NCBI GenBank assembly: GCA_947505105.1
Contig: CANNKG010000017.1
Coordinates: 1-46,546 of the forward strand
Length of the DNA: 46,546 nt
Reading direction: 5' to 3'
Source of the DNA: Methylococcaceae bacterium
GTDB taxonomy: Bacteria; Pseudomonadota; Gammaproteobacteria; Methylococcales; Methylomonadaceae
Numbering within the stretch: the stretch's first letter is position 1; each line of letters opens with the position of its first letter. A program made the translations under genes and the position numbers. Below the pieces are notes generated by a model, which made no database searches, was not told the origin of the DNA, and was given only the letters and a program-made list of their open reading frames with translations. Shown here in pieces: positions 2,919-41,552 of the stretch.

Positions 2919-2979
2919 ATAATAAAGTATTAAACATTGAATTCTAAATTCAAGTTCTATACTTATTCGGAGGTTATTT

Positions 2980-11776: not shown

Positions 11777-11780
11777 ATCT

Positions 11781-17421: not shown

Positions 17422-17733
17422 TTAACGGTTACACATCAAGTTAACACCATCACTAAACAACAACACATCTTCTGGAAAAATCTGTCTTCCCAATAACGAT
17501 ACCTTTATCGTCAAAGGCAATCGATAGCAACGAATATCGTCCTGCTTAAGATGTATAAGTTTTTCAAGATTAGCTAACAGTTTGAGCAAAGACTTACGTT
17601 TTAATACCACCGTAAAAACTGAATACTGTAGCGGTAGCCCCTGCGTTTTAAGAAATCGATGCACCTTAGCTAGCCGCTTAGGATCGGCTATGTCGTAACA
17701 AATCAGATACAAACCTTGCTGGTGATCAGCCAT
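17422..17733 (-). CDS. cas2: Cas2-like protein of the second adaptation module
   Basis: The 103-residue ferredoxin-fold protein has the Cas2 opening strand YLICYDIADPKRLAK (Asp at the usual position), then GLPLQYSVFTVVL and DDIRCYRLP, all matching Cas2. Cas2 is the structural core of the Cas1-Cas2 integrase. Its start overlaps the stop of the Cas1-like gene (TAATG), so both are translationally coupled and presumably form a complex. It is clearly distinct from the canonical Cas2 at 19510-19794, and its C-terminal third (KVSLLGRQIFPED) is longer. It could be a normal integrase partner or a repurposed one. Confidence 0.75.
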   Translation of the reverse strand: MADHQQGLYLICYDIADPKRLAKVHRFLKTQGLPLQYSVFTVVLKRKSLLKLLANLEKLIHLKQDDIRCYRLPLTIKVSLLGRQIFPEDVLLFSDGVNLMCNR

Positions 17734-18476
17734 TAACTAACTGTCAACAAAAACTGATGTAACTTATTCAAAGAACTCTTCGCCAACAAATACATGCGAT
17801 CCTCTTGAGCTTGGAACAACTGCGCGATTGCTTTAACATCGGGAAGACCTTCGGGATTATGCCAAGCCATCAAGGCTGGATAAAAATCCCAAACCAATAA
17901 TCTGCTTAAATCCCTCACTAAATCAACAGGACCAGCAATTAAAGCCTCGTCATCATTCGAGAATCCAAAATTGGGCAACATGATCATTAATTCACTCTGT
18001 AACAAACTTTCCAGCAAATTCGCCCGCAAGCGATCCGTTGTTGAAAATTCCAACACAAAATGCAATCTTAATTCCTGAATCGATACCAAGCGCCAATCCA
18101 CAATGCCAGAACGTCTCGCTAAACTTCTGGCGACCAGCTTTTCCATAGAAGCATACCAATTCTCGTAAAGCGCCAAACCATCACTACGTGCCAGTAAATC
18201 TACCAAACGCTGAGAAAGAGATTGTCGGTTGCCACATTGACCTAACCAACGTGCCCGCACTTCACCGTTAGCATTTAAAAACAACAAGGTAATTCCAGCA
18301 TCGGCACACGCCAGCAAAGCTGACATCGACCATTCGACAACGCCTTTACAAACAACACGAGAAATTCTCGATAAGGGAAATAACTGATCAGCCTTTTCCG
18401 GTACCACTATTCTCAATGCCGGATCATCGAGTACAACTCGACAGCCAGGAAAACCATCAATATAAAGTGGGCGCAT
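17733..18476 (-). CDS. Cas1-like protein lacking the catalytic Glu and His
   Basis: The 247-residue product has a Cas1-type N-terminal beta domain (LYIDGFPGCRVVL, ISRVVCKGVVEWS, GITLLFLNANGEVRARWLG) and a helical C-terminal half. The blocks that hold the Cas1 active site are altered: no E-G-x-x-A segment and no GFxH; only an Asp in VDLVRDLSRLL sits where the acidic pair should be. It is about 75 residues shorter than the canonical Cas1. Position right after cas2-cas1 and coupling to its own Cas2-like gene mark a second, probably catalytically inactive, adaptation pair. Role unknown: integration factor, regulator, or capture complex. Confidence 0.7.
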   Translation of the reverse strand: MRPLYIDGFPGCRVVLDDPALRIVVPEKADQLFPLSRISRVVCKGVVEWSMSALLACADAGITLLFLNANGEVRARWLGQCGNRQSLSQRLVDLLARSDGLALYENWYASMEKLVARSLARRSGIVDWRLVSIQELRLHFVLEFSTTDRLRANLLESLLQSELMIMLPNFGFSNDDEALIAGPVDLVRDLSRLLVWDFYPALMAWHNPEGLPDVKAIAQLFQAQEDRMYLLAKSSLNKLHQFLLTVS

Positions 18477-18538
18477 CTGTTCCCCCCATCACCACACAGT
18501 CATTCCTCATACGACAGCCCCCCACTAAAAAGCTTCTT

Positions 18539-19507
18539 TCACAACAAACCTACAGACTGTTGATAAATTTCAAGACAACGCCGCGCTAAACGATACCCGT
18601 TTAAACGCAACAAGCGCCGCACCGCTCTAGCCTCAGCCTCATAACAGCCATAAAAAATCTGCCGACCAGCTTTGCCTAACAAACAACGCTCATTTTCAAA
18701 GCTAAAATGATCCATCGTCAGCTGCCGATCACGAAACAATTGCCACACCCAGCGATCAACCAAAGGACGGAGTGGCTCAATCAAATCGCAAGCCAAAGAT
18801 TCCCGCCCGAAATGAAGCTCATGAAAAAAACCGAGCATTGGATCCAAGCCCACCTGATGCAGTGCTCTCACGGCATCATAATGCAGCAGCGTATAACCCA
18901 AAGACAGGCAAACATTTACAGGATCAGGGGGGGGGCGCTTTTTTCGGCCGGTAAATTTTAAGGCATCAGGAAACAAATGCCGATAACCACTAAAAAATGC
19001 CGCAGCCCCTGCCCCTTCATAACCTTGCAATTGATCGCTATCCGGCAATTCAGACAACTGAGCCAAGGTGTTCAGAATTGTCATAAGGGTTTCATTCGAT
19101 GTCGACAACGGATAGCGTAAATCCGGTCGTTGCAACAAAGCATCATGAAGAAAGCGCCTTTGCGCACGCAGCTTGTGACAAATTAACTGGAAAGCTAACT
19201 CTTTACGTAACTCAGAATCTTCAACCAAACGATACTGCCCGATCCTTCGCATACTATCGTTATGGGAACGCCCCACCAACATTGCAGTCGCTTCACTATA
19301 CCGTCCAGACAAAAGTAATAGGCTGATATTACGTTCAGACAACGCCCCCAACACTCGACTTTCGAGTAGAACATTTCCATGCATGACTACCCGTTCCAGC
19401 AAATTCAACGGAACAGAACCTTTTCTAGCGCCGTCTTCATACAATACTAATGCCTGACCATCCAGTTTAACGCTCAAATTTTTCCGATCCAGATACAAAT
19501 TACTCAT
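18539..19507 (-). CDS. cas1: Cas1, CRISPR spacer integrase
   Basis: A 322-residue canonical Cas1. The metal ligands are visible: Glu164 in GYEGAGAAAFF, His229 in GFFHELHFGRESL and Asp241/Glu244 in CDLIEPLRP, with the PPPDPVN block before them. Cas1 with Cas2 inserts new spacers at the leader end of the array. It follows cas2 by two bases. A run of nine C residues (G9 at 18927-18935 on the plus strand) codes for the PPP of that block, next to an A6 run: an unusual homopolymer inside the active-site region that could slip. Confidence 0.95.
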   Translation of the reverse strand: MSNLYLDRKNLSVKLDGQALVLYEDGARKGSVPLNLLERVVMHGNVLLESRVLGALSERNISLLLLSGRYSEATAMLVGRSHNDSMRRIGQYRLVEDSELRKELAFQLICHKLRAQRRFLHDALLQRPDLRYPLSTSNETLMTILNTLAQLSELPDSDQLQGYEGAGAAAFFSGYRHLFPDALKFTGRKKRPPPDPVNVCLSLGYTLLHYDAVRALHQVGLDPMLGFFHELHFGRESLACDLIEPLRPLVDRWVWQLFRDRQLTMDHFSFENERCLLGKAGRQIFYGCYEAEARAVRRLLRLNGYRLARRCLEIYQQSVGLL

Positions 19508-19509
19508 AC

Positions 19510-19794
19510 TTAACCCACATAAAAAAAGCTGTCATTTTGGGGCAACACGGCTTTACCCAGGATATGGATATAACTAGCGCCAGCTAAATGCAGCAGAAAA
19601 AAGCGATCCTCTTCCGGGTCAATCACCTGTTCGATACGCTCTAACAATTGCTGCTTTTCTTGAGGCGTCAAAAAACATTCAAACACCGACTTTTGACCAC
19701 CAGATGCATAAGCTCGTAGCACCTTCAGCGCTTTGCGTAAGCGAGAATTAGAAGAAATATCGTAAGCAGCCAAATAAAGTTGTCGTTGCGTCAT
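19510..19794 (-). CDS. cas2: Cas2, CRISPR adaptation protein
   Basis: A 94-residue Cas2: YLAAYDISSNSRLRKAL (first strand with Asp), GGQKSVFECFL, and RFFLLHL. It partners with the Cas1 immediately downstream. I use ATG 19794; a TTG at 19800 would add two residues. It is transcribed away from the CRISPR array, so the 0.2-kb interval between its start and the first repeat holds both its promoter and the array leader. Confidence 0.93.
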   Translation of the reverse strand: MTQRQLYLAAYDISSNSRLRKALKVLRAYASGGQKSVFECFLTPQEKQQLLERIEQVIDPEEDRFFLLHLAGASYIHILGKAVLPQNDSFFYVG

Positions 19795-20003: not shown

Positions 20004-23000
20004 GTCTTAATCCCTTCTTTATCAGGTCATATATTCAAATTATAGGCTTTTAGTGAGCCTGCGGGATGCTCCGTCTTAATCCCTTCTTTATCAGGTCATA
20101 TATTCAAATAGCACCGAACATGCTCAAGTGGGCTAATAAATTGTCTTAATCCCTTCTTTATCAGGTCATATATTCAAATGCAAACTATACGACAAGTTAA
20201 GAAACGGCGGTATTGTCTTAATCCCTTCTTTATCAGGTCATATATTCAAATACTTTTTGAACAGATAAAAGCAACAAAAAAGCAAGAGTCTTAATCCCTT
20301 CTTTATCAGGTCATATATTCAAATTTGCTTAACTAACAAAACGCCATAACAGGCGGCGTCTTAATCCCTTCTTTATCAGGTCATATATTCAAATAGAAGA
20401 TCATGTTCAAGTTCACACACAAGGGCAGTCTTAATCCCTTCTTTATCAGGTCATATATTCAAATTAAACCTTAAACTGGAGCAAGACCCGATGAGTATGT
20501 CTTAATCCCTTCTTTATCAGGTCATATATTCAAATTTAATCCTAATCCAAGTATAAGATCATGTTGCACGTCTTAATCCCTTCTTTATCAGGTCATATAT
20601 TCAAATAACGGCTGTTTTAATTAACCATGATCCACAGCTCGTCTTAATCCCTTCTTTATCAGGTCATATATTCAAATAATATACCCCCGTGAAGTCGTCA
20701 AAAGATCACTGTCTTAATCCCTTCTTTATCAGGTCATATATTCAAATTAGACCGTAACACCGAGATCGCATTAATTGCGAGTCTTAATCCCTTCTTTATC
20801 AGGTCATATATTCATATTCAGTCGCTTTTGAGGCTTCGACTGTTCTAATAGAGTCTTAATCCCTTCTTTATCAGGTCATATATTCAAATTATTCAGTTTA
20901 ATGTTGTACCAAATAATATTTGGTGTCTTAATCCCTTCTTTATCAGGTCATATATTCAAATTAGAAAAATTGATGCAAAACCGTTAACCGACGATAGTCT
21001 TAATCCCTTCTTTATCAGGTCATATATTCAAATTTAGGTTATTATGATTACGTGAAAACTAATCGGTCTTAATCCCTTCTTTATCAGGTCATATATTCAA
21101 ATACCGTGACAACAAAGCCTACGACCTGTTAGCTGCGTCTTAATCCCTTCTTTATCAGGTCATATATTCAAATAGAAGATTTCGGCAAAAACGGTCAGAT
21201 TAAACGTCTTAATCCCTTCTTTATCAGGTCATATATTCAAATAAGAAAATAAAGAAACTAGCCTAAATAGCATGTCTTAATCCCTTCTTTATCAGGTCAT
21301 ATATTCAAATTTACAAACAGTCAAACAACTAACAAGGCGTTTTGGTCTTAATCCCTTCTTTATCAGGTCATATATTCAAATTTAGAAACTTTGTCGTTAA
21401 TGGAGATAAGCTGACGTCTTAATCCCTTCTTTATCAGGTCATATATTCAAATCAGCGCAGCATCACGAACAAACAACCAAGGTGACGTCTTAATCCCTTC
21501 TTTATCAGGTCATATATTCAAATTAGACCTCGAACCGGGTCAAGACTTGCACCGCGGTCTTAATCCCTTCTTTATCAGGTCATATATTCAAATCGGTACA
21601 CATCGAAGGCCGCCGCTGGTTTGACAAGTCTTAATCCCTTCTTTATCAGGTCATATATTCAAATTCGACGACATCACCAACGCCCCGCTTTATTTTAGTC
21701 TTAATCCCTTCTTTATCAGGTCATATATTCAAATCTACTCGCTTAAACCCTATAGCACAGACGTACTGGGTCTTAATCCCTTCTTTATCAGGTCATATAT
21801 TCAAATCTTTACGGGGATGATCGCCCGGTCAGTTACCCGTCTTAATCCCTTCTTTATCAGGTCATATATTCAAATGAGTGTGACTGCAAAGGTCATACGC
21901 AATCAAGCGGTCTTAATCCCTTCTTTATCAGGTCATATATTCAAATATGTCGCGGTGAATAAAGTGGTCATTCATAACCAAGTCTTAATCCCTTCTTTAT
22001 CAGGTCATATATTCAAATAATGGATAATAAAGAATTTAGTTCAGATTCTGGAGTCTTAATCCCTTCTTTATCAGGTCATATATTCAAATTTGGGAATCTA
22101 AAGGTAATGGTATTGGAATCTTCCGTCTTAATCCCTTCTTTATCAGGTCATATATTCAAATTTATGATAAGCAATATCTTTCATTATTAGAATTAGTCTT
22201 AATCCCTTCTTTATCAGGTCATATATTCAAATCAAAAAATTTAATCAATCGAATTGAATTTTTGTCTTAATCCCTTCTTTATCAGGTCATATATTCAAAT
22301 TTATCTATTAACGACATTCATTTTCCTTTTTCGTCTTAATCCCTTCTTTATCAGGTCATATATTCAAATTTAAAGTGAGCCATAAACAACTACACACAGC
22401 CGTCTTAATCCCTTCTTTATCAGGTCATATATTCAAATGCAATTCCCGCTTATGTATGGCAAACCATCGACGTCTTAATCCCTTCTTTATCAGGTCATAT
22501 ATTCAAATGTGGTTCAAACAACATTAGCTTAGAAACAGCTGTCTTAATCCCTTCTTTATCAGGTCATATATTCAAATATAAGCGTATCGAAAAGCACGGC
22601 TACAATTGTCTTAATCCCTTCTTTATCAGGTCATATATTCAAATCACCGAGGCGAAGAAAACCCCGCCGACGATGCGTCTTAATCCCTTCTTTATCAGGT
22701 CATATATTCAAATATCTGAACGATTCACACCTTGACACCGCTTTAAAAGTCTTAATCCCTTCTTTATCAGGTCATATATTCAAATGACCATGAAAGTTTT
22801 TATTACCACCACACCCGCTGTCTTAATCCCTTCTTTATCAGGTCATATATTCAAATGCCGGATCGGTTTTAAGCCCACTTATCGATTTAGTCTTAATCCC
22901 TTCTTTATCAGGTCATATATTCAAATTGAACGCCTTGATTAACATACACGGCGACAGCAACGTCTTAATCCCTTCTTTATCAGGTCATATATTCAAATGC

Positions 23001-26000
23001 CAGACATGCGCAACTGTAAAAAACTTTATGAGTCTTAATCCCTTCTTTATCAGGTCATATATTCAAATTCGAACATAGCCGCGAAGCCCACAATCTTGGA
23101 CGGTCTTAATCCCTTCTTTATCAGGTCATATATTCAAATTTGAAAGATAAGATGATTGAGGCTGGCTATGTTAAGTCTTAATCCCTTCTTTATCAGGTCA
23201 TATATTCAAATAAAAGCCCGAAAGAAAGAAAGACCCCGCCCCCGGGTCTTAATCCCTTCTTTATCAGGTCATATATTCAAATTTACCCAAATACCCCCAC
23301 ATCACCATAAACAGTAAAGTCTTAATCCCTTCTTTATCAGGTCATATATTCAAATGCACACAATCGATGGACAACGCCCCAGCGCCGTCGTCTTAATCCC
23401 TTCTTTATCAGGTCATATATTCAAATGAACATAGCCGCGAAGCCCACAATCTCGGGCGCGTCTTAATCCCTTCTTTATCAGGTCATATATTCAAATAGAC
23501 CCCATGAGCGTAATAGCCAAAACCCGCACGTCTTAATCCCTTCTTTATCAGGTCATATATTCAAATCCGCACCATCGAAGGAAAGACCGCTACGTATGAT
23601 GTCTTAATCCCTTCTTTATCAGGTCATATATTCAAATTTGTAATACAGTCTACAATCTAAAAAAAAAGCCTGAGTCTTAATCCCTTCTTTATCAGGTCAT
23701 ATATTCAAATTAATTAATAGAGCTGGGGCAAGCTTTATTAGATTCTGTCTTAATCCCTTCTTTATCAGGTCATATATTCAAATTTAACCTGAATGGCGAC
23801 AGCAACCCACTTACCCGTCTTAATCCCTTCTTTATCAGGTCATATATTCAAATTGAACAACCAACAACGCTACACCCTAAAAACCCGTCTTAATCCCTTC
23901 TTTATCAGGTCATATATTCAAATGAAATCGAAACGCAGTTAATGAACTGGAGTAGATAGTCTTAATCCCTTCTTTATCAGGTCATATATTCAAATTTCCT
24001 ATTACTGTTTGTTGGTAATAGGTTTGGGGTCTTAATCCCTTCTTTATCAGGTCATATATTCAAATGCATAGAGATAAACGACACAGGCGATATTATCCAG
24101 TCTTAATCCCTTCTTTATCAGGTCATATATTCAAATGTTGTACAGAGCTGCACCAAGCATATTTGCCGAGTCTTAATCCCTTCTTTATCAGGTCATATAT
24201 TCAAATTTAAGGAACTCGACGACATTACCAACGCGCCGACGTCTTAATCCCTTCTTTATCAGGTCATATATTCAAATCAAATGGCGATACAGTATTAATC
24301 ACTGTATCTGGGTCTTAATCCCTTCTTTATCAGGTCATATATTCAAATACCTGAAACGCACAAACCCCACGCAAGCTTTTGAGTCTTAATCCCTTCTTTA
24401 TCAGGTCATATATTCAAATATACAAAAAACCACTAAAGCATGGCCGGCTGGACGTCTTAATCCCTTCTTTATCAGGTCATATATTCAAATGAGTCTGGTG
24501 CGCAAATAGTAACACCCAATTGGTGTCTTAATCCCTTCTTTATCAGGTCATATATTCAAATGTGAGAAGGTCATGAAAACCACCGTAACGATTAGTCTTA
24601 ATCCCTTCTTTATCAGGTCATATATTCAAATCCGACGGTACCTACGAAACTACCGACGACCTTAGTCTTAATCCCTTCTTTATCAGGTCATATATTCAAA
24701 TAAACCAACTAAAAGGTAAAGACAATGAGCAATTTAGTCTTAATCCCTTCTTTATCAGGTCATATATTCAAATCCGCCGGTTTTATGACATTCCGCATCG
24801 TACACGGTCTTAATCCCTTCTTTATCAGGTCATATATTCAAATTGAGGGGTTTATTGATAATTACATGGCATTTAAGTCTTAATCCCTTCTTTATCAGGT
24901 CATATATTCAAATGATTACAGTTTACAATATGACACTGATTATTTTGTCTTAATCCCTTCTTTATCAGGTCATATATTCAAATGCCTCAAATATTGACGT
25001 ATCCGATTATAAAATGTCTTAATCCCTTCTTTATCAGGTCATATATTCAAATGCAGTTTGCAGGCTTTACACTACATTAGATTTTTGTCTTAATCCCTTC
25101 TTTATCAGGTCATATATTCAAATAACAGATTTGAATCTGAAAGCTACACGCTTTCGTCTTAATCCCTTCTTTATCAGGTCATATATTCAAATGTCAATTC
25201 GACTTGATAGCCAACATCACAAATTGGTCTTAATCCCTTCTTTATCAGGTCATATATTCAAATGATATTTGCTGCAAATGAAGCAATTAAAGAGCGTCTT
25301 AATCCCTTCTTTATCAGGTCATATATTCAAATGTTTTATAAGTCTAAACCTATTCGATATTACAAGTCTTAATCCCTTCTTTATCAGGTCATATATTCAA
25401 ATATTACACCGTGTATGATCGAAAAGCCTTAATGTCTTAATCCCTTCTTTATCAGGTCATATATTCAAATGAATCGCATGATTCTATATACTCAAATAGA
25501 TTAGGTCTTAATCCCTTCTTTATCAGGTCATATATTCAAATTCTTATTGAGTGCAGTTATGACAGCTGCACATCAGTCTTAATCCCTTCTTTATCAGGTC
25601 ATATATTCAAATTTTAAATAACTCCAATGACGCCATGATTAATCATGTCTTAATCCCTTCTTTATCAGGTCATATATTCAAATCCAAGTAATATTTATTA
25701 CATGGTAGAAAAAAGTCTTAATCCCTTCTTTATCAGGTCATATATTCAAATAGCGCATTAGTCACATTATATGTTTTAATTTGTGTCTTAATCCCTTCTT
25801 TATCAGGTCATATATTCAAATTTGGAGTAATACAATATGTGCTTAATAATTTTTGTCTTAATCCCTTCTTTATCAGGTCATATATTCAAATCAACCGAAA
25901 CGCGGTTTTCAATTTATTGCGCAATGTCTTAATCCCTTCTTTATCAGGTCATATATTCAAATCAAAAAGAGATTTTAACTTCTACTGAGCCAATGAGTCT

Positions 26001-29000
26001 TAATCCCTTCTTTATCAGGTCATATATTCAAATGCCAAGTCATTGAAATAGATTTAGAATCGAGGTCTTAATCCCTTCTTTATCAGGTCATATATTCAAA
26101 TATATTATAATTTCGTTAAGGATAACCGCAAAACGTCTTAATCCCTTCTTTATCAGGTCATATATTCAAATGACAAAATTGATTTAATATCTCAACTAAT
26201 AACTGTCTTAATCCCTTCTTTATCAGGTCATATATTCAAATAAAACTGAGATTTTACTAGCATCTAATTTACTAGGTCTTAATCCCTTCTTTATCAGGTC
26301 ATATATTCAAATAAAAAATATATCTTATATGGCTATAGTATCTCAGTCTTAATCCCTTCTTTATCAGGTCATATATTCAAATAAAATAAGTATGGATGCT
26401 ATGCCGCCAATATTGACGTCTTAATCCCTTCTTTATCAGGTCATATATTCAAATGTTTTAAACTGGATAATATCCAGTTTAACGTGCTGTCTTAATCCCT
26501 TCTTTATCAGGTCATATATTCAAATCACGACCATGATCATGATGCACCAAGCTACTCGTCTTAATCCCTTCTTTATCAGGTCATATATTCAAATAGTGGG
26601 GACAATTGGGTGTTGTGCTCAGATGGTGTCTTAATCCCTTCTTTATCAGGTCATATATTCAAATTTATCTATGGTGCGAGGAGTGTGAGGAATGGACGGT
26701 CTTAATCCCTTCTTTATCAGGTCATATATTCAAATTTTACAAAAGCTTAAATTTACCTTTTGAGGCCCGTCTTAATCCCTTCTTTATCAGGTCATATATT
26801 CAAATTGAGATTAAATTAGATGTTAAGCCGATAATTTCCGTCTTAATCCCTTCTTTATCAGGTCATATATTCAAATTTTAGAAACAGAGAACTAGACCAC
26901 GATGGCACGTCTTAATCCCTTCTTTATCAGGTCATATATTCAAATAATATAGAGTTTGGGCTTCATTTTCGTTTTGCGTCTTAATCCCTTCTTTATCAGG
27001 TCATATATTCAAATGCAATGGTTTTTACACGTTAGACTATTGTGAGTCTTAATCCCTTCTTTATCAGGTCATATATTCAAATGACTATTCCGATACCTTC
27101 AGCAAGTATCCTGAGTCTTAATCCCTTCTTTATCAGGTCATATATTCAAATATCTGGGCTGAACATGACATGCCTAGTGAATTTGGTCTTAATCCCTTCT
27201 TTATCAGGTCATATATTCAAATTTCATGGCGGAGTGCATGTCATGAGCTTGTTATTCTGTCTTAATCCCTTCTTTATCAGGTCATATATTCAAATTATAA
27301 GACAATGGCAACTAAAGCAAAAGACGTGTCTTAATCCCTTCTTTATCAGGTCATATATTCAAATCTAATCGAACAATGGCGATAGGAATTGACCTTTGTC
27401 TTAATCCCTTCTTTATCAGGTCATATATTCAAATACAGTTTGAAAAAGAAACAGTACAAGAAACAAGTCTTAATCCCTTCTTTATCAGGTCATATATTCA
27501 AATTTTTTGAAAAGTCTTTATGAAAAGACTGAGTTACAGTCTTAATCCCTTCTTTATCAGGTCATATATTCAAATACAAGCTTTCCGATAACTAAAGGAA
27601 TGATAACGGTGTCTTAATCCCTTCTTTATCAGGTCATATATTCAAATGTTCATAAGTATCATAAACTAGAAATTGTTTTAGTCTTAATCCCTTCTTTATC
27701 AGGTCATATATTCAAATCCTAAGAGCAAAAGCTATATTGTGCAAAATAAGTCTTAATCCCTTCTTTATCAGGTCATATATTCAAATATAACAAATGGTGA
27801 TTATCATGGTAACGAATACGTCTTAATCCCTTCTTTATCAGGTCATATATTCAAATATATAATCATTAAACACCTTCTAAGTGTTTGATGTGTCTTAATC
27901 CCTTCTTTATCAGGTCATATATTCAAATTTAGCGGCGTTCAAGCCGGTACAGTTTTCAGTGTCTTAATCCCTTCTTTATCAGGTCATATATTCAAATGAA
28001 CTTACGCTTTTATTACTAACAACGGAAAGAGGTCTTAATCCCTTCTTTATCAGGTCATATATTCAAATAAATAATATCGGCGGTTGTGAGTCGCATATTG
28101 TGTCTTAATCCCTTCTTTATCAGGTCATATATTCAAATTCAGTACGGGTGTTATTTGCCCAATATTGGCTGGTCTTAATCCCTTCTTTATCAGGTCATAT
28201 ATTCAAATTACAACAACAGGCTATGAAGGGCAAGCTGTTGGAGGTCTTAATCCCTTCTTTATCAGGTCATATATTCAAATACCAGTCAAGGATTAAATGC
28301 CTTGATTGGAACTGACTGTCTTAATCCCTTCTTTATCAGGTCATATATTCAAATATTACAAAAAAATTGGGCAGCAATGCCCTTGTAGGTCTTAATCCCT
28401 TCTTTATCAGGTCATATATTCAAATTGGTCATAACGTCAGAACTGTTTTGAATTGTGCGTCTTAATCCCTTCTTTATCAGGTCATATATTCAAATGGCAT
28501 TGGCAGATAATAGTCTGTATGGCAAAGCCGTCTTAATCCCTTCTTTATCAGGTCATATATTCAAATCAAACGGTGATAGTATGTCAAAACCAAACAAAGG
28601 TCTTAATCCCTTCTTTATCAGGTCATATATTCAAATTGACAAAGGTCGGGTAGTAATCTTCAAAGAAGAGTCTTAATCCCTTCTTTATCAGGTCATATAT
28701 TCAAATTTAAGGATGCTCAGGAATAAAGCTCAGTACTTATGTCTTAATCCCTTCTTTATCAGGTCATATATTCAAATATAAAATAAAAAGGTGATAAAAA
28801 TGATAATGATTGTCTTAATCCCTTCTTTATCAGGTCATATATTCAAATAAAGTCTTTAAATGGGAAAAACTTAGCCTTAAAGTCTTAATCCCTTCTTTAT
28901 CAGGTCATATATTCAAATAAAACAGTATAATAGCTTCACTGTTTGATAAAAGTCTTAATCCCTTCTTTATCAGGTCATATATTCAAATGTATAACCTTTT

Positions 29001-29057
29001 AACACATAGCGCGTACAAGGGTCTTAATCCCTTCTTTATCAGGTCATATATTCAAAT
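20004..29057 (+). CRISPR. CRISPR array, about 129 repeats of 37 bp
   Basis: A 37-bp repeat starting GTCTTAATCCC and ending ATATATTCAAAT recurs about 129 times by my manual count, separated by unique spacers mostly 32-36 bases long; the mean period is about 70 bases. Repeats are practically invariant from first to last; the only variant I found is at 20781-20817 (A to T at 20815, in the handle). The last eight bases, ATTCAAAT, correspond to the 8-nt 5'-handle of type III crRNAs. The repeat has no strong hairpin, fitting Cas6 processing of an unstructured repeat. Spacers in the right half are noticeably more AT-rich. Open frames inside the array are repeat artefacts. Confidence 0.99.
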
Positions 29058-29151: not shown

Positions 29152-30285
29152 CTAATTAATCCATTTAAGTAATTCTTCAGGCAGTTGCGTCAAATTTCTG
29201 CTGTCGCAGACCATTATGCCTAAATCTCGGGCGCGTTGACGATCGTAATCATTCAACGTATTAAAGTATACTAGCATGGCGCGCGCCTGTAAGCCGCCGA
29301 TTAAATCTCGCAAACTGTCCAGTTTATAAAGTGTTTCAGTATTTTTTCCATCACGCATACTTTTATCGCTATGGGTCTTACATTCGATCAGATACAGCCG
29401 ATTGTGCTTTAAAAACACTACATCTAGCTCATTTCTGATCGGAGGTTTCATGTGGTTTCTTTCGACTTCCAAGCTTCGAGCAATGTCTTGAATATTGTGG
29501 ATCTTCTTTATATTCAGACAGAGTCCATAGACATGATCTTCCAACCAACCGCCATTGACATAAAATCTTGCCGCCTCATTTGGAAAGCGCAGTCGATTAC
29601 CCTCAAGGTTCAAAAGTCCTTCTTGTTCGAAAATGCCACACAAGTTGATAAACTCCGCATAACCTAAATGCGCGTTGTCAACCAGCACGGTCGCGCGAGT
29701 TCTCGCCTGAGCGGCATAAGCATTCAAAATACTCAACGGCGCACTTAATCCCTGCGCTTCAACAATCAACCTTTGAGTTAATTCGCGTAAGCGTACCGGA
29801 ACCCCATGTTTATCACCTTGATGGGTAATTTGAGCGCCGTAACTCGCCAGAAAATCCGGCAACTTAACCCGATTTGCCAGCGTATGACTGGCTTGATCTT
29901 CCGGATACATCCAAATAAGTCGATCCTCATCGGGATGCACATAAAATATCGGCTTTTCAAAGGCTCGAAATACTTCGTACGCGGCGATACTCATTGGTTT
30001 GGTACCACCAGTTGCATTAAGCGCCATTGCTTCTGAATCCGACTGATCGAGAAGATCAAACATTCGATCTCGAATATGTTCAATATCGAACGCATTAGCA
30101 ATCATATGCCGCCTCGTCTGAATTCCTTTAGTCTTGATGACACTTTCCAGCCATTCAGCTCGTTGTTGCATATCAGGACTTACTACCAACACTACGCGCT
30201 TGGGACAGAGCTGTTCATCTAAAAGGGGCGTGATATTAGGCACCGCTTGCGCAGAAACCAAGATCAGATGCGTATCGAGTTTCAT
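29152..30285 (-). CDS. card1: Card1/Can2-like CARF nuclease
   Basis: The 377-residue protein has an N-terminal CARF domain (LILVSAQAVPN, then ATGGTKPMS at about 91-99) and a C-terminal PD-(D/E)XK nuclease of the DUF1887 family (GGWLEDHVY near 246, NELDVVFL near 285, LIECKTHS near 299). Such proteins (Card1/Can2) are activated by cyclic tetra-adenylate made by Cas10 and cut ssDNA, RNA or supercoiled DNA, causing dormancy. Catalytic residues Glu249, Asp288, Glu301 and Lys303 look intact. The start overlaps the stop of the upstream CARF gene (ATGA). The gene converges with the CRISPR array, only 94 bases from the last repeat. Confidence 0.9.
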   Translation of the reverse strand: MKLDTHLILVSAQAVPNITPLLDEQLCPKRVVLVVSPDMQQRAEWLESVIKTKGIQTRRHMIANAFDIEHIRDRMFDLLDQSDSEAMALNATGGTKPMSIAAYEVFRAFEKPIFYVHPDEDRLIWMYPEDQASHTLANRVKLPDFLASYGAQITHQGDKHGVPVRLRELTQRLIVEAQGLSAPLSILNAYAAQARTRATVLVDNAHLGYAEFINLCGIFEQEGLLNLEGNRLRFPNEAARFYVNGGWLEDHVYGLCLNIKKIHNIQDIARSLEVERNHMKPPIRNELDVVFLKHNRLYLIECKTHSDKSMRDGKNTETLYKLDSLRDLIGGLQARAMLVYFNTLNDYDRQRARDLGIMVCDSRNLTQLPEELLKWIN

Positions 30286-30890
30286 AGACGTACTCCCGAT
30301 AAAATTTTGATGCGGGTAGCATTGGATTCAGGTTTGTTATCCCGGTATACCGTCGTGACATAGATAGTCGCAATACCCGATTCTTCAGCCGCCATAAATG
30401 CACCCAAACTCATGGTTTTTTTGCCACCGGTAATATCAACCGCAATATCACTCACTTCATCCTGTTTAATCATTTCCAGCAACTCCAAGGTTTTTCGTTT
30501 CACTTCCACAGGATCATCAGCATCATTAATTAAACCTTCACAAACTCGTATCTGTTTGATTTCAGATGAAGCTCTAATTTGATCTGCCAAGGCTTGGGTA
30601 TCTCGAGTATATAGCAAACCTATACAGGTAGGTTGGACTTGACGGATGACCCATTGAGGCAACTCACTTTGACTTACCGTAAAAATCAAACCTTGCCACG
30701 CATTTTGCGGCGGAATTTCACCAATAGTGGGAAAACTATTCCGAATCAGCCAACGACGTAAGGTATTGCGATAAAAAAAACCATAGATGCCACCAATGAG
30801 CGTCATCGTCATGACAAGATCACCGAGTAAGATGCCGAACCGATCCAAGTATAGCCAGAACGTTTCTGAGAGATAAAAAGTATCTTGCAT
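30282..30890 (-). CDS. Membrane-anchored CARF protein without visible effector domain
   Basis: The 202-residue product starts with about 17 soluble residues, then one transmembrane helix (about 18-40: FGILLGDLVMTMTLIGG and on), then a basic stretch, and a CARF-like Rossmann domain to the end with the signature DITGGKKTMSLG at 152-163. There is no HEPN, nuclease or protease domain. It should sit in the inner membrane with its CARF domain in the cytoplasm (positive-inside). Coupled by 4-bp overlap with card1 and located after cad1, it presumably senses or degrades the cyclic oligoadenylate, or signals at the membrane. No named family is recognised. Confidence 0.75.
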   Translation of the reverse strand: MQDTFYLSETFWLYLDRFGILLGDLVMTMTLIGGIYGFFYRNTLRRWLIRNSFPTIGEIPPQNAWQGLIFTVSQSELPQWVIRQVQPTCIGLLYTRDTQALADQIRASSEIKQIRVCEGLINDADDPVEVKRKTLELLEMIKQDEVSDIAVDITGGKKTMSLGAFMAAEESGIATIYVTTVYRDNKPESNATRIKILSGVRL

Positions 30891-30967
30891 GACTGAATTA
30901 AGGGGGTAAATATTTATATATAGAATCGGAAAAAGTAACGAACCGTACCGGTAATTTTGCGAATTTA

Positions 30968-33052
30968 CTAATCGTCTACCAACAATTGATAAATTTCGGC
31001 ATCCATGCGTTTTAACATTTGCTCTTTGGCTTCACTCGGTAAAAACGCATGTACAAATCCTTGTTTAATAATGGCTAAACCATCCCACAACGACAATTGG
31101 TAATCTATCATCCGCACTGCGGTCAAATATTCGTCTGCCAGCGTGGTGCGGCTGATCCCCGGATTATCGGTACATATCGTCAGCGGCAAACCATTTTGCC
31201 AAAGTTTTAGCAAAGGATAATGAGGATATGGGGCTGTTGCCGTAAAATTTGGGTCGAAAAATCCAACCACTTCTCGATTGGAAGTCGGACATAATTCCAG
31301 ACAAATATCCCGATTACGAAAGCGTTCGGCTAAGTTAGGATGGTCGCCAATACTCAAGCCGTGACCAATACGGTCGGCATGTAAATTATAAGCCGCTTCC
31401 CAGATGGCTTCAGCCGCTTCACCTTCACCAGCATGAATCGTTAGCGGCAAACAATGTTCGAACGCCGGTAGAAAACAGCCCGCGATTTTGGCGGGATTTG
31501 CAACACTTTCATCACCCGCCAAATCGAGACCTACGATAAATTCTGGCAGCAATTCCTTAGCCTGAACCGCCAGCGCTAGGGTATCTTGCAACGCTGTAAT
31601 GCTATGGCGCCGATCGGCAATCAAGATAAACCGAAACTCAATCTTTACCGCTTGATTTGAACAGGCGTTCAGCAAGGCATCATAAAATTGCGTTAAAAAC
31701 ACCAAACCATTGCCGTATTTTTGCGGACTACCCCTTAGCTCCACATAATGCAGACCTTCACGTTGCGCCTGAACGACGACTTGTTTGGCGTAAGTTTCCA
31801 GCGCAGCGGGATGACTGAGCAAGGTTGAACCAGATAATTCCCCAGGTCGCTCATAAGCCTCAAAGCCTTGAGGATGTTGATTTTTAAGCGCGAGACGAGG
31901 CTCGGTCACGCCAAACAGATTAAACTCCAACACGTCGGAAGAGGTATGTACCAATAGCGCTGCGGCATTGTGGCTGCGCGTTCCAAGTTGTTTGATATGC
32001 AACGGCCAGTCCCAAGGCCACTCACCCTGTTCGGCGAGCGGCTGAATGACTTGCCGTGCCGTTTGTCGTTCGAGCAGAGTTAAGCTGTCCCAAATGGCCC
32101 GCCCAACCTCTTGCTGCGCGGGTAAATCCAAACACCCGCCGAGATGGCGATGCAAATCGGCCTTCGGCAGCGCGACCAACCACGCGCGATGTTGGTCGGT
32201 GAGTTTGGTCTGACGCAACTGCTCAATCAGGCGCGGCGGTAATCGATACAGGGACCGCCAGTTTTCATGCCGATCATGACGGCTGATTTCAAGCAGATAA
32301 TTGCCCAGCAAGCGGGAACCTGCTTGCTCACGTCGTCTGATTTCGTCAACCAAACGCGGTGCATTCGCCTGCCACAGCGTTACTTCGCTCAATAGAGGAA
32401 TCGGAATCGGATAGTCGCAACCTTTGATCGGTGGACATTGATCCAAATGCACGTCCAGAATTTCACTGCGGGTTGTCGCGCCGGTCACTAACGGTAAGAT
32501 CTCGGCGCACAATGGTGCCAGCATAGGACAGGTAAAAAAACTAGGCGGCGCGCTTTTAAGTTCTACGGACATCGGTTCTTCTGCAATGACATGCAACATG
32601 GCTTGACACCCAAACAAACTTCCGGCCCATTGAATATCAGCACTCATGGTTTTTCGCCCACCCGCCAGCGACAAGGTCAATTGCCCGCCGTGCAGTCGTT
32701 CCTGCGCCGCCAAACACGTTCTAAGAATCAACTCGCGCATGTCGTCACATTCCTGCTGACTAGCGAGTTGCTGTGTTTGCGCGGCTTGAAAGATGCGTAA
32801 CACTGGCGAATCAACCAGACCTTGATGCCATTCAAACAAGCACTCAAGACTTTGCTGAGTTTGTCGACCCTGCGTCGTTACAATCCAGATTTCATCAGGT
32901 GCCTGTAATTGATACTGCACGCGCCGCTGTTCAATGTGCAGGCGTTGAGGATGATTACGGTAGAGCGGTAATCTTTCCGGCGCGAGAAATCCATAGACTT
33001 CTGGAATCACCGCCCAACTGGTGCCTAGGGAGCAAATGAGGATATTTGGCAT
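30968..33052 (-). CDS. cad1: Cad1: CARF-adenosine deaminase effector
   Basis: The 694-residue protein fuses an N-terminal CARF domain (LICSLGTSWAV, then SLAGGRKTMS near 128-137) to a C-terminal adenosine deaminase. The zinc site is complete: DLHRHLGG (His301, His303), TIHAGEGE (His540, Glu543), DRIGHGLS (His564) and TICTDNPG (Asp629). This is the layout of Cad1, a type III effector reported to deaminate ATP to ITP when bound to cyclic oligoadenylates, thereby stopping host growth and phage replication. A GAGG site lies next to the ATG. It heads a three-CARF cluster (cad1, membrane CARF, card1). The linker (about 200-290) is unassigned. Confidence 0.92.
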   Translation of the reverse strand: MPNILICSLGTSWAVIPEVYGFLAPERLPLYRNHPQRLHIEQRRVQYQLQAPDEIWIVTTQGRQTQQSLECLFEWHQGLVDSPVLRIFQAAQTQQLASQQECDDMRELILRTCLAAQERLHGGQLTLSLAGGRKTMSADIQWAGSLFGCQAMLHVIAEEPMSVELKSAPPSFFTCPMLAPLCAEILPLVTGATTRSEILDVHLDQCPPIKGCDYPIPIPLLSEVTLWQANAPRLVDEIRRREQAGSRLLGNYLLEISRHDRHENWRSLYRLPPRLIEQLRQTKLTDQHRAWLVALPKADLHRHLGGCLDLPAQQEVGRAIWDSLTLLERQTARQVIQPLAEQGEWPWDWPLHIKQLGTRSHNAAALLVHTSSDVLEFNLFGVTEPRLALKNQHPQGFEAYERPGELSGSTLLSHPAALETYAKQVVVQAQREGLHYVELRGSPQKYGNGLVFLTQFYDALLNACSNQAVKIEFRFILIADRRHSITALQDTLALAVQAKELLPEFIVGLDLAGDESVANPAKIAGCFLPAFEHCLPLTIHAGEGEAAEAIWEAAYNLHADRIGHGLSIGDHPNLAERFRNRDICLELCPTSNREVVGFFDPNFTATAPYPHYPLLKLWQNGLPLTICTDNPGISRTTLADEYLTAVRMIDYQLSLWDGLAIIKQGFVHAFLPSEAKEQMLKRMDAEIYQLLVDD

Positions 33053-33772: not shown

Positions 33773-35086
33773 TTAATTTTGCAATTGAGTTAACAATTCC
33801 TTCGCTTTTTTATTTCCCTTGGCACCAATGAATTCAACAAGCAGTCGCGCAATTTCCAGCAAATCATCTTTATCCGTTCTTGACCACTTGTCTGCTGCAG
33901 TGATGAGTTGTTTAAGCTCAGTATATAGAGGCCCCCCAATTTGTTCACTGACCTTTGATTTTTGCTTGGTTTGCAATTTTTGGCGCAATTCCTGGATCAG
34001 CTTTTGCTCGGTGGACAATGCTTCTAGCCGCATTTGCTCCTGATACTCGACAAGAGCATCTATTTTTCCTTGATCGAAGTTCATTTGCCCATAGCCCACT
34101 GCCGTTTTTGCGCCAAAACCCAACCAGTCGAAAGCATGTTCGAAAGTGGCTTTAAGTAAAGTTTTCCAATGCTGTCGAAAAAACTCGGGCAAACGTGCTT
34201 CAGCACAAGTACAGTAAAAATCGAACTGGCTATTGGGTGGCAGCGTTAACAACACGTTGGGCACCGGTTGTTCCGAATCGTGCGGTGAGTTTTTACCATT
34301 AAAATAGCCACCGTGATGCGGCGTTAAAATGTCCATCGCTAAACTTTTGCTTTCCGGAAATACATCCCAAAAACATAAAGCACCTTGAATACTGATCGAC
34401 TCACGCAAAGTTTTATTAAGCGCTAAATCATTCAAAAAAGCCTGTGGCTGATCGATGTATCGCTTTTTATCTTTAGCTTCAGTCGCGCATTCAATAAACT
34501 TTTTTAATGCGGCAACTTCATATTCACCCCTTGCCAACCATTCCTGATAAATAGCTTGACGGCGCTGCGCTTCCTCATCCAATACGTCAATGCCATAGGC
34601 GGATTGTTTAAACATCGAACCACCAGCTTCAAAACCAAATAGCCACCAAACACTAAGCATATCCCAGCCCTGCTTGTCGCCATACAACCCCAAGGCCAGT
34701 TGCTCGGCAGCCGTTCGCAACACGCCTTTGACACTGGAACCGGGTAAATAAGGCAAGCCGTAGGGATTGATAAAGGCAAAGCCGTTTTCTAAAGGGTGTT
34801 CGTTGCCGATGCCGGTCATAAACGGAGCAATGCTTTTGGCCGGAAAATATTCAGCGTTTTGTTTTAGCGCAATGGATTGCTGGCGTTGGCGCAGATTTTC
34901 GGTGAGTTTTATCGAATTCGGCGATAAAGATTTGGCGACTGTTTTCAGCGCCTCTTTTTTGCCGCTTTCGGCCCTGCTCCAATTATCTTGCCAAACTGGA
35001 AAATACAAACCGAAGCGATGACCGGGGGCGACATCCTGACTTTCTATATGTTTTGTCATATAGTTGGGAACAGCAGCTTTTGTCAT
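33773..35086 (-). CDS. cmr6: Cmr6, type III-B RAMP protein
   Basis: Cmr6 caps the Cmr complex near the 3' end of the crRNA. The 437-residue product shows the RAMP pattern: a central LPGSSVKGVLRTAAE block near 115, the ILTPHHGGYFNG block near 250, and the Gly-rich WLGFGAKTAVGYGQ loop near 320. A charged helical extension of about 95 residues follows (from about 340), which is longer than typical. AAGGAG lies five bases before the ATG. It is the last Cmr subunit in the operon order 1-2-3-4-5-6. Confidence 0.9.
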   Translation of the reverse strand: MTKAAVPNYMTKHIESQDVAPGHRFGLYFPVWQDNWSRAESGKKEALKTVAKSLSPNSIKLTENLRQRQQSIALKQNAEYFPAKSIAPFMTGIGNEHPLENGFAFINPYGLPYLPGSSVKGVLRTAAEQLALGLYGDKQGWDMLSVWWLFGFEAGGSMFKQSAYGIDVLDEEAQRRQAIYQEWLARGEYEVAALKKFIECATEAKDKKRYIDQPQAFLNDLALNKTLRESISIQGALCFWDVFPESKSLAMDILTPHHGGYFNGKNSPHDSEQPVPNVLLTLPPNSQFDFYCTCAEARLPEFFRQHWKTLLKATFEHAFDWLGFGAKTAVGYGQMNFDQGKIDALVEYQEQMRLEALSTEQKLIQELRQKLQTKQKSKVSEQIGGPLYTELKQLITAADKWSRTDKDDLLEIARLLVEFIGAKGNKKAKELLTQLQN

Positions 35087-35095
35087 GGTAACTCC

Positions 35096-35446
35096 TTAAT
35101 GACTAATGGCAGAAAACTGGCGTATCCAGCGCAGCAGAGCCAGGGTTTCTTCGGTGGCTTTGCGGTATTTTTGACTGTCGGCATTTAATAATGCCTCCAT
35201 CATCTTGTCAAAAGACATCAAGACATTTTCATCATGTTTGAAATAGCTGGCCAGCCAGTCGATAATATGCTTATTCAACGAGTGATGTTTTTTATCCTGA
35301 TAAAAGGCTAACGTTTGCATTAGCCCATTATTCATAATCAAAGCCGGCGCCCCCTTAGCCAGTTTAGTGTAATCGTCGTTTTCGCCTTGCACTACTCTCC
35401 ACGCATAAGCCGCACGCTTTTGCTCCATGCTAGGTAACTTACTCAT
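35096..35446 (-). CDS. cmr5: Cmr5, type III-B small subunit
   Basis: The small helical subunit that lines the Cmr backbone and contacts the crRNA-target duplex. 116 residues starting MSKLPSMEQKRAAYAW, with AKGAPALIMNNGLMQTLAFY near 38-57, the conserved Cmr5 block. ATG 35446 overlaps the end of cmr4 by eight bases (ATGAGTAA), so the longer open frame upstream (to 35611) is not native. The spacing indicates translational coupling. Confidence 0.93.
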   Translation of the reverse strand: MSKLPSMEQKRAAYAWRVVQGENDDYTKLAKGAPALIMNNGLMQTLAFYQDKKHHSLNKHIIDWLASYFKHDENVLMSFDKMMEALLNADSQKYRKATEETLALLRWIRQFSAISH

Positions 35447-36380
35447 GGGTACCCCCGATAACCGAACAAATAATTTGCCCTCGCCCTGTCGTCGCATCAC
35501 CACCGAATTGCACCATACGACCATTGAGCGCTTGCCATTTGTCTGCATCACCGTTTTCAAGCAAATCAATAATCTTGCTAGCATCCATGACTTTATCTGG
35601 TTTTTTTTCACGCGAATAACGCTCTTGACTTGCCATTACGACCGTAAACAACAGGCTTTCCGGTGGCAAATTTTCGGTATAGAACAACGCCCCGCCATCT
35701 GCGGTGCCGCTGACATCATCGATGCGTACATGCGGTTCGACAACGGTGGAATTAACCACAAAATAATGTAATTCGTCATCTGAAAGCAACACTAAGTCAG
35801 TTTTCAGTTTGTTACGAAAATATTCAAAATATTTTTCTGTAGGCAACGCGGATTCAGCCAGCCAATCAGCAATAACACCGAAACTATTATCAGCGTCCAT
35901 TTGTGCACTAAGTTCATAAGCTTCTAGTGCTAATTTGTTTTCGGTCAATAAATTAGGATTTCGCATCCGACAATCACCACTATTAATTTCTGGAATATTC
36001 CAAGTGGTTATAATTTTTGCCAATCCCAACTGTCGTTTAAGTCGCCCCAGTAACAACGGTGAAGTCGCATAAACGAAACCCACCTTGGGACACCGTACCG
36101 GAAACGCCACCAGTTGCCCATCGCTGAAACTCAAAGCCCCTGCATGTTCAGCAGCATCGGATTCCGGGCCAAATAAACGATTGAGCAGGTTTTTATCCTC
36201 GTCCCGCGCCCAATAATCATGGCGGATTGCGCCTTTAATCCCCGAACCGGCCATCATCGGGTACTCAGTATGGCGTTCGCGTTGGATCGGATTGTCAATC
36301 AATCCGCCCACCGCCGTACCGGTGCCCATATGCACCGGACTGACGCAATAAAGAAATGCAATTCGTGTTTCCTGAAACAT
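35439..36380 (-). CDS. cmr4: Cmr4, type III-B backbone RNase
   Basis: Cmr4 forms the helical backbone and cuts the target RNA at 6-nt intervals. The 313-residue product shows SPVHMGTGTAVGGLID near 14-29, where Asp29 corresponds to the catalytic Asp of the thumb loop, then IQRERHTEYPM and SGIKGAIRHDYW, all Cmr4 hallmarks. A strong AAGGAG site precedes the ATG, consistent with a need for several copies per complex. The active-site Asp appears intact, so the complex should be cleavage-competent. Confidence 0.95.
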   Translation of the reverse strand: MFQETRIAFLYCVSPVHMGTGTAVGGLIDNPIQRERHTEYPMMAGSGIKGAIRHDYWARDEDKNLLNRLFGPESDAAEHAGALSFSDGQLVAFPVRCPKVGFVYATSPLLLGRLKRQLGLAKIITTWNIPEINSGDCRMRNPNLLTENKLALEAYELSAQMDADNSFGVIADWLAESALPTEKYFEYFRNKLKTDLVLLSDDELHYFVVNSTVVEPHVRIDDVSGTADGGALFYTENLPPESLLFTVVMASQERYSREKKPDKVMDASKIIDLLENGDADKWQALNGRMVQFGGDATTGRGQIICSVIGGTHE

Positions 36381-36394
36381 AGTGACTCCTTACT

Positions 36395-37546
36395 TTAAAG
36401 CGGCCAAGCCGCGATCATGATGTTGTTAAAACCTTCGGCGCGGCGTTTACGATCAGGATAATCACTGATTGCAAACAAACTCTGTTCGACAAGTTTGCCA
36501 AGCGCGTTAACGTCCCCTTCAAATTGGTCGAACCAATATACGCTTCCTGAACTGACTGATTTTAAGGCCGGTTTGGGTTGATGCGCTGCAATATCCCAGC
36601 CGCTAATCGTGTCGGCTCTGGCGACACTGGCGGTGATCAAACGCGCGCTAAAATCGTCGGTTTGCCACTGAAAACCATTCGCGTTTTGACGCATTCCTGG
36701 TAATAACCAACCTGCCTCGAATAAACCCGGTGTGGTCAGCAGCAAGCGAAAGCGCTTTTGTTGGTCGATGATTTCCCACTTGGGCTTTGGTCTTTGCCAA
36801 GCAACTTTGTATTGCTGAGCACCTCGCCCATCGCCCCCTAAACGCACAAGACTCTGTTGAGGCAACAAACCCGGCGCTCCGCTTACGCCACTCAAAAAGC
36901 CGATTCCTCGTGCTAACGCAACGGTTTCTACCGTATAAAGCTGACTTTCAACAGTTGTTCTGGCTTCGGGCGCCAGTGTAATGCCTAAGCGCGCATCAAG
37001 CTTCCATAAGTCCCCTGAAAGGACAAGATGCTCATTTTTTAGCGGTTCGGCATTTAGCCAAGCCTGAATACCGGCAGCATTGATCCAAATCCCCCCCTCG
37101 GGTTTAGCTGGTTTTTCACTCCGTAATACCGGTAAATGCTGACAAGGTGCACTGCTTAACAAGCCGGATGGCAAGGATTCTGGTTGTAGGTAATAAATAA
37201 GCTGTCGATTATTTTGCACAATCACATCAGCGGGCAGTGGTAAATACACATCGTCGATTTGCTGATCACGCACTTTTGCAAGCAAAAAATCACTAATTCT
37301 AAAACTTCCAGGTTTTGAAGGCGTTCCCAAACTTTCCTGTAAATGCAGAGGTAAAGCGACCTGATCGACGGCAAACTTACCGGCATCTATTTGATGTGTC
37401 GCTAGAATTTGTGAGCGTAAAGCTCCTGCTGCCATTGAAGGCCAGGGCGGCATTAACGCCTCGCCGGGTGTTGAAGCGTCGGCAAACAGTCGATTGCCAC
37501 GCAAATACAAAATATCTAAGGGTTCTGTAAAGTGATATTCCGTCAT
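36395..37546 (-). CDS. cmr3: Cmr3, type III-B RAMP protein
   Basis: Cmr3 binds Cas10 and the 5'-handle of the crRNA. The 383-residue product has the typical N-terminus (FTEPLDILYLRGNRLF) followed by PPWPSMAAGALRSQIL near 33-48, and a C-terminal FNNIMIAAWPL. Its ATG overlaps the cmr2 stop (TAATG) and has GGAGG upstream, so it is translated together with cmr2. It must recognise the unusual ATTCAAAT handle encoded by the array. Confidence 0.9.
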   Translation of the reverse strand: MTEYHFTEPLDILYLRGNRLFADASTPGEALMPPWPSMAAGALRSQILATHQIDAGKFAVDQVALPLHLQESLGTPSKPGSFRISDFLLAKVRDQQIDDVYLPLPADVIVQNNRQLIYYLQPESLPSGLLSSAPCQHLPVLRSEKPAKPEGGIWINAAGIQAWLNAEPLKNEHLVLSGDLWKLDARLGITLAPEARTTVESQLYTVETVALARGIGFLSGVSGAPGLLPQQSLVRLGGDGRGAQQYKVAWQRPKPKWEIIDQQKRFRLLLTTPGLFEAGWLLPGMRQNANGFQWQTDDFSARLITASVARADTISGWDIAAHQPKPALKSVSSGSVYWFDQFEGDVNALGKLVEQSLFAISDYPDRKRRAEGFNNIMIAAWPL

Positions 37547-40464: not shown

Positions 40465-40467
40465 GGG

Positions 40468-41541: not shown

Positions 41542-41552
41542 TTGATACCTCA

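Follow-up and report, generated by a model that had tools for sequence, protein, structure and literature searches.

A second, apparently non-catalytic Cas1 and a second Cas2 in a type III CRISPR adaptation cassette: candidate subunits of a mixed integrase

The four-gene cassette and its surroundings

The window, the whole stretch of 46,546 nucleotides analysed here (Methylococcaceae bacterium, GenBank assembly GCA_947505105.1, contig CANNKG010000017.1), harbors four consecutive CRISPR adaptation genes at positions 17422-19794 of the minus strand. Their order is cas2-cas1-cas1L-cas2L, where cas1L and cas2L designate the second Cas1 and the second Cas2 gene, and all four reading frames are intact. 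The genes and the neighbouring CRISPR features are:

19510..19794, minus strand: cas2, the first Cas2 (94 aa; Pfam CRISPR_Cas2, 56.6 bits)
18539..19507, minus strand: cas1, the canonical integrase (322 aa; Pfam Cas1, 240.7 bits, profile positions 1-282 of 283)
17733..18476, minus strand: cas1L, the second Cas1, predicted non-catalytic (247 aa; Pfam Cas1, 32.2 bits, residues 10-104 only)
17422..17733, minus strand: cas2L, the second Cas2 (103 aa; Pfam CRISPR_Cas2, 59.2 bits)
20004..29057, minus strand: CRISPR array, 128 exact 37-nt repeats and at least one variant copy
29152..33052, minus strand: genes for CARF effectors (a Card1-like nuclease, a CARF/TM protein and a CARF-adenosine deaminase)
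33773..41553, minus strand: type III-B effector genes cmr6, cmr5, cmr4, cmr3, cas10/cmr2 and cmr1 (NCBIfam; Cmr1 by PADLOC only)
44329..45279, minus strand: cas6 (NCBIfam TIGR01877, E 3.9e-7, below the cut-off)

This agrees with the earlier note, which had described a canonical Cas2-Cas1 pair followed by an incomplete Cas1-like and a Cas2-like gene; the TAATG overlap reported there is also present, cas1L and cas2L sharing one base. Both small proteins are Cas2, with scores above the Pfam cut-off of 23.8 bits, and in a tree the first one groups with the Cas2 of related loci, separate from Cas2L. The canonical Cas1 carries E164, H229, D241 and E244, and its nearest solved relative is 8d3l. The cas1 and cas1L genes are the only Cas1 matches in this genome (5.1 Mb, 307 contigs). 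No effector domain was found in the four cassette proteins, and an NCBIfam scan detected no reverse transcriptase domain in them or in 16 other proteins of the window.

Read in the sense of the cassette, the array repeat ends GGGATTAAGAC, and the leader probably lies at the high-coordinate end. The 127 defined intervals are all distinct, and one of them, of 105 nt, spans the variant repeat. A megablast search of the array, which needs 28 exact bases, gave no phage matches to the spacers. Among the effector genes, cmr3 scored 77.5 bits, below its NCBIfam cut-off of 100.4. With Cmr genes and a 37-nt array linked to the cassette, the window carries a type III adaptation module.

Spread of the cassette and its type III setting

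In PADLOC-DB, the window Cas1L is matched best by PDLC01185 ("Cas1, diverged variant, second in the loci"), with 38 bits (next profile 32.2) and an E value of 3.4e-10 over residues 14-147 only. Like the window Cas1L, which follows cas1, the protein of this profile is described as the second Cas1 of its locus; the accompanying note names no function and omits the second Cas2. PDLC01185 matches 58 of 61 Cas1L, and two general Cas1 profiles match 60 and 59 of the same 61.

Relatives were sought in a collection with one genome per species (84,980 species) by a scan seeded with the neighbouring Cas1. It gave at least 572 confirmed relatives, of which the best 80 were used as named loci. All query Cas1 rows came from Cas1L-bearing loci, so that a Cas1 beside Cas1L is guaranteed by construction. 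Among these best 80 of 572, the full cas2-cas1-cas1L-cas2L order occurs in 62, and 15 have cas2-cas1-cas2L and lack Cas1L. The cassette is incomplete in the other three, two of which end at a contig edge (L075 and L129) and one of which has a probable frameshift in cas1L (L137). In the 15 loci without Cas1L, no ORF besides the Cas1 themselves matched the Cas1L profile at E <0.1. Both Cas2 paralogues are present in 78 of the 80 loci, the other two being cut after cas1L, a count that holds for this Cas1 clade only. Cas2L is the constant part of the cassette and Cas1L is optional. The suggestion of a self-contained dead Cas1 with its own Cas2 is therefore not supported, given the 15 loci with Cas2L and no Cas1L. 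As an independent check of the Cas1-seeded sample, 42 distinct loci were found with Cas1L itself; 40 of them hold cas1 and cas2L near by, with the two others at contig edges, and 41 include a canonical Cas1, the remaining locus being cut by its contig.

In 27 of the 62 complete loci cas1L and cas2L overlap, with 13 overlaps of 1 base and 14 of 4 bases, and in 57 the distance between the two genes is 30 bases or less, as measured from starts picked by script. One open frame spans both genes in L137. A frameshift is likelier than a fusion there, because another frame has its stop codon overlapping the start of cas2L, an arrangement shared with other loci. Other apparent fusions were read as artefacts of frames extended upstream, and one candidate (L057), which reads as a formamidopyrimidine-DNA glycosylase from its sequence, was removed ahead of counting.

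Genome tallies are inflated by weak N-terminal matches to ordinary Cas1. At the level of the class, 25 of 369 genomes matched PDLC01185, five of them weakly (L032-L036), leaving 20 with Cas1L; in the family the match was 22 of 101, with three weak or false, leaving 19. The raw count among the relatives is 13 of 61, weak matches included. In the phylum, 46 of 398 genomes matched the 61-row Cas1L profile, six near full-length and one more cut by its contig, a tally of protein matches alone. No Cas1L match was found in plasmids. Viral contigs gave four loci with Cas1, none of which has Cas1L.

The setting of the 80 loci was searched with the window type III genes as seeds. Effector subunits were found in 46, some by weak matches (L109, 21 bits), and CARF or ring-nuclease-type genes only in 15, so that, within the sequence available, 61 of the 80 carry genes of the type III effector or CARF type. 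Two more (L084 and L112) have cas6 only, and 17 gave no match; one of these 17 (L079) has a Csx1-like CARF-HEPN gene according to PADLOC. Ten flanking ORFs of L092, L111, L120 and L128 contained no CRISPR effector family. NCBIfam searches with ten proteins from seven loci identified Csm3 in five loci, one Csm1 and one composite Cas7-like protein; Csm5 was matched in three loci, once above the cut-off. As judged from these gene families, the cassette accompanies type III systems in general, III-A as well as III-B. The co-occurrence with III-B arrays, which the earlier note had suggested checking, holds as a link to type III, but not as a restriction to III-B, since Csm genes occur among the relatives. 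A role outside CRISPR, which had been listed as an option, finds little support in view of the 61 loci with type III or CARF-type genes and the canonical Cas1 in 41 of 42 loci. Repeats with a window-like ending, in the sense of cas1, were found in four loci without Cas1L (L085, L104, L109 and L134); they mostly end in GGGATTRAGAC, with GGGATTRAAAC in many L109 copies.

Active site, fold and history of Cas1L

In the canonical Cas1 of the related loci, E164, H229, D241 and E244 are invariant (79 of 79 rows, excluding the short Cas1 of L091 and L139). In the same alignment, with 64 Cas1L rows (excluding L129, which is cut, and L137, and with the upstream-running frames of L126 and L138 cut to the last 270 residues), the Glu column is gapped in 63. 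A His stands at the His column in 9 of the 64, eight of which are of the Nitrospirota type described below, and the catalytic Asp is kept in 49. In the window Cas1L, D189 is retained, and both the catalytic Glu and the catalytic His are missing. The same picture emerged when a profile of 61 Cas1L (the window included; L078, L126, L129, L137 and L138 left out) was set against the solved Cas1 8d3l: the Glu falls in a stretch missing from Cas1L, the His is substituted and the Asp is matched. In 41 further Cas1L, Glu was found in one, His in two and Asp in 28.

The window protein was modelled with AlphaFold2 (pLDDT 89.6, pTM 0.66). The 50 Foldseek rows listed, out of 474 at an E value of 10 or less, and the 50 listed by VIA-align belong to Cas1, Cas1 complexes or casposases. 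The exceptions are 2yzs, the one such case among the Foldseek rows, and 3god, neither of which names Cas1 in its title. The best VIA-align match has Z 13.2 and rmsd 9.9 over 240 aligned residues. According to the model, the window Cas1L is a complete two-domain Cas1 fold without the catalytic site, in a domain arrangement that appears uncertain or altered. It has both domains and the overall fold in common with canonical Cas1 (PF01867), the N-terminal domain matching by sequence as well. However, it is 75 residues shorter and, of the Glu, His and Asp set, keeps the Asp alone. The claim that the second Cas1 is catalytically incomplete is thereby borne out. Its net charge is -2, versus +7 for Cas1; the Cas1L median is +5 (n=62).

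For the window protein, alignment did not restore the Glu and His; a distant subclade, however, retains the His and probably the Glu. This Nitrospirota type has nine members (L084, L089, L096, L097, L100, L102, L108, L112 and L136), five of them Nitrospirota, and shows an invariant Glu (9/9), a His (8/9) and an Asp (9/9). The Glu is followed by an invariant Tyr and starts a helix (residues 139-149 in L097). The Glu-Tyr spacing differs from that of canonical Cas1, and the combined alignment had put this Glu outside the Glu column; by its context it is probably the catalytic Glu. The modelled L097 protein can be superposed on Cas1 along its entire length (Z 24.9, rmsd 3.2, 266 aligned). In the window protein an Ile stands opposite this Glu, namely Ile125 if judged by alignment and Ile133 if judged by the start of the helix. 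Glu135 is near by, in a column with Asp or Glu in just 11 of the 41 further Cas1L. Given the Nitrospirota type, inactivation of Cas1L may have been stepwise. Since a Glu-His-Asp set is plausible there, the gene may owe its origin to something other than the logic of a dead subunit.

In a tree (L078, L126 and L138 again cut to the last 270 residues), all 64 Cas1L fall into a single clade (support 99) to which none of the Cas1 used belongs; inside it, the Nitrospirota type makes up one group (100) and the remaining Cas1L the other (82). A tree of 79 Cas2L and 81 Cas2, built on 104 columns only and with several long branches, divides the two by a single change, loci without Cas1L included. On the Cas1 tree, which was rooted with nine other Cas1 and has poorly resolved deep forks, presence and absence of Cas1L require six changes by parsimony and at least three by well-supported branches. 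Because Cas1L is one clade, these changes are read as losses. The simplest reading of the trees would be two old duplications, with several later losses of Cas1L and retention of Cas2L. Gains through transfer of cas1L alone may be the alternative.

Cas1L evolves fast, with one invariant column among 61 rows. Its dN/dS is 0.04-0.17 in 10 of 13 hand-picked close pairs that are partly non-independent. For canonical Cas1 these pairs give 0.05-0.30, and the value of Cas1L exceeds that of Cas1 in 9 of the 13. The three remaining pairs (L073/L076, L126/L142 and L138/L142) have 0.41-0.57. The full frames of L126 and L138, with starts that could not be fixed, entered three rows of this analysis and may inflate dN/dS there. 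Two of the three high pairs include such frames. The four-gene order in 62 of 80 loci, the single Cas1L clade and the low dN/dS exclude a decaying copy that only this strain would have.

A possible mixed integrase and the alternatives

The known integrase is a hexamer of four Cas1 and two Cas2 (PMC9048733; PMC12259127). Two of the four Cas1 are active in the known complexes and the others wall the repeat channel (PMC12259127). A non-catalytic Cas1 touches the repeat close to the ruler element (PMC6895254), and the PAM end is capped by Cas1b' (PMC10284694). The Cas1b protomers described for these complexes are, as we propose for Cas1L, Cas1 that do not join DNA (PMC12259127, PMC6895254, PMC10284694). 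There, the idle and the active subunits come from one gene, whereas the cassette would have a separate gene for the idle one.

Our preferred reading, to which we give about an even chance, is that Cas1L is the dedicated non-catalytic subunit, and Cas2 with Cas2L the mixed core, of one heteromeric integrase. Cas1L would occupy the idle Cas1 positions, which would free its active site to decay, and the central dimer would be Cas2-Cas2L. With its two unlike faces, such a complex could distinguish the ends of the prespacer, or the leader side from the spacer side of the repeat, independently of a PAM. A gene copy confined to the idle role would keep its fold and could dispense with Glu and His, which matches Cas1L. 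Since Cas2L occurs in loci without Cas1L, it must act there with Cas1 and/or Cas2, and its retention in them speaks for a single mixed particle rather than two distinct ones. The low dN/dS, the single Cas1L clade and the kept gene order count for the mixed integrase. Against it count the fast evolution of Cas1L (dN/dS above Cas1 in 9 of 13 pairs), the uncertain domain arrangement (pTM 0.66, rmsd 9.9), the charge of the window Cas1L beside that of Cas1, the plausible Glu-His-Asp set of the Nitrospirota type, and the 15 loci that manage without Cas1L. We infer the co-assembly, the placement of each subunit and any polarity. Among the roles listed in the earlier note, that of an integration accessory fits best, and Cas1L probably has a structural role in CRISPR memory formation.

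A wider proposal is possible, though doubtful as a whole: an asymmetric four-subunit integrase that arose by gene duplication and owes to its pseudo-enzyme and its Cas2 heterodimer a fixed polarity, which orients PAM-less type III spacers, with the Nitrospirota type as an active intermediate and cas2-cas1-cas2L as a reduced form. Type III uptake is PAM-independent, and interference requires an RNA complementary to the guide (PMC9048733). We speculate that a built-in polarity would be useful under these two conditions. The cassette bears on an unsettled question, namely how useful spacers complementary to transcripts are gained by type III systems in the absence of a PAM. If the proposal is true, different genes would encode the catalytic and the non-catalytic subunits of this integrase, and it would be a clear case of an enzyme turned scaffold, of which both a reduced form and an intermediate that seems active are extant. 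The split into Cas1 and Cas1L with two Cas2 makes each subunit separately removable, which is impossible where one Cas1 fills four places.

Cas1L and Cas2L could instead form a DNA-binding complex of their own, whose task would be to capture or shield prespacers, or else to bind the leader and control the active integrase. The adjacency and frequent overlap of the two genes, the presence of Cas2L with Cas1L in every locus neither cut nor frameshifted, the retained Cas1 fold and the positive median charge all agree with this. Yet Cas2L is not dedicated to Cas1L, being found in 15 of 80 loci without it, and the window Cas1L is negatively charged; we regard such a complex as unlikely. The pair might also pick the spacer source, for example by contacting transcription or the type III effector, and in this way draw spacers from transcribed strands. 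A type III setting was present wherever effector genes were seen, and the PAM-independent uptake together with the need for an RNA-complementary guide (PMC9048733) also speaks for it. However, neither an effector nor a reverse transcriptase domain was found in the four proteins and the array has no phage match by megablast; we regard this reading as improbable.

Still slightly less probable is a Cas1L that remains catalytic, for instance in trimming prespacer ends, through a changed or partial site that includes the retained Asp. The Asp in 49 of 64 rows and the Glu-His-Asp set of the Nitrospirota type are consistent with it. In the other 52 rows, however, His stays below 30% in every column, and wherever Asp or Glu makes up 50% or more of a column, that column lies away from the expected place of the Glu. 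The Asp itself lies within a DLxxLL-like stretch and was perhaps kept for packing. Two independent adaptation modules, the second a decaying relic of a once-active Cas1-Cas2, would account for the loss of two catalytic residues, the shorter protein, the absence of cas1L from 15 loci and the probable frameshift in L137. This is very improbable, as dN/dS of 0.04-0.17 in 10 of 13 pairs largely refutes it and the gene order is conserved across several phyla.

The cassette has partial parallels on plasmids. In pMC64A (Aeromonas media) and pSna507_unt13 (Sphaerotilus sulfidivorans), two annotated Cas2 flank one Cas1, like in the cassette, and these Cas1 are 40% and 47% identical to the window Cas1, respectively. 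Type III-B genes adjoin cas2-cas1-cas2 in pMC64A. In contrast to the window, both plasmids lack Cas1L, and cas1 overlaps the second cas2. Among the open-access papers listed, we found no treatment of a second inactive Cas1, or of two cas2 in a type III setting. The same papers gave no prior statement of a constant Cas2L, an optional Cas1L or a Glu-His-Asp subclade. The view of Cas1L as an under-described component thus holds in that it is conserved and undiscussed in the open-access papers found, but it already has a profile in PADLOC-DB. The type III system of Methylacidiphilum strain V4 is reported with two Cas2 and a "truncated" cas1 (PMC6688271), and could be an instance of the four-gene cassette.

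CRISPR array and other genes of the window

The CRISPR array of the window (20004-29057) is very long, and its spacers, mostly 30 to 37 bases in length, are all different. The presence of 128 identical repeats together with the absence of any repeated spacer suggests that acquisition has been recent and frequent. The following CARF effector genes are encoded in the window.

CARF effector genes of the window
29152-30285, Card1-like nuclease, near the CARF-adenosine deaminase gene
30282-30890, CARF/TM-type protein, beside the same gene
30968-33052, CARF-adenosine deaminase protein, with a CARF-type N-terminus (Cas_NE0113 match) and a C-terminal adenosine deaminase domain

Searches of Pfam, NCBIfam and PADLOC gave no match for an ORF of 123 aa (33377-33748) that lies within the type III-B region. 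A few kb away from the adaptation cassette there is a pair of long ORFs (8630-14534; 1091 and 917 aa), which are a candidate AddAB-like helicase-nuclease from sequence reading alone.

Nitrospirota-type Cas1L and gapped cassettes

In the Nitrospirota-type Cas1L, a subclade of nine (loci L084, L089, L096, L097, L100, L102, L108, L112 and L136), a Glu is invariant, a His is found in eight and an Asp is also present. Judging from these residues, such loci could possibly carry one cassette with two active Cas1 proteins. In one of them, L112, cas1L and cas2L lie about 2.4 kb apart. Gaps were also found in L124, where cas1 lies about 4.3 kb downstream of cas2, and in L063, where 956 bases separate cas1 from cas1L; these three cassettes may have been split by insertions. 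At another locus, L119, a composite Cas7-like protein (1696-3183) is encoded beside the Cas1L cassette and matched both the Cmr4 and the III-E gRAMP models, each below the cut-off.

Plasmid cassettes and a possible published case

Cassettes of the order cas2-cas1-cas2 are also plasmid-borne. The one on a Sphaerotilus plasmid (L177) has BREX genes as neighbours, and a type III effector is not among the annotations of the stretch examined around it. The cassette on the Aeromonas media plasmid pMC64A (L178) is accompanied by cmr1-cmr6, cas10 and cas6. The type III system of Methylacidiphilum strain V4 is reported to have a 'truncated' cas1 and two Cas2 (PMC6688271), and is possibly an unrecognised cassette of the cas2-cas1-cas1L-cas2L kind.
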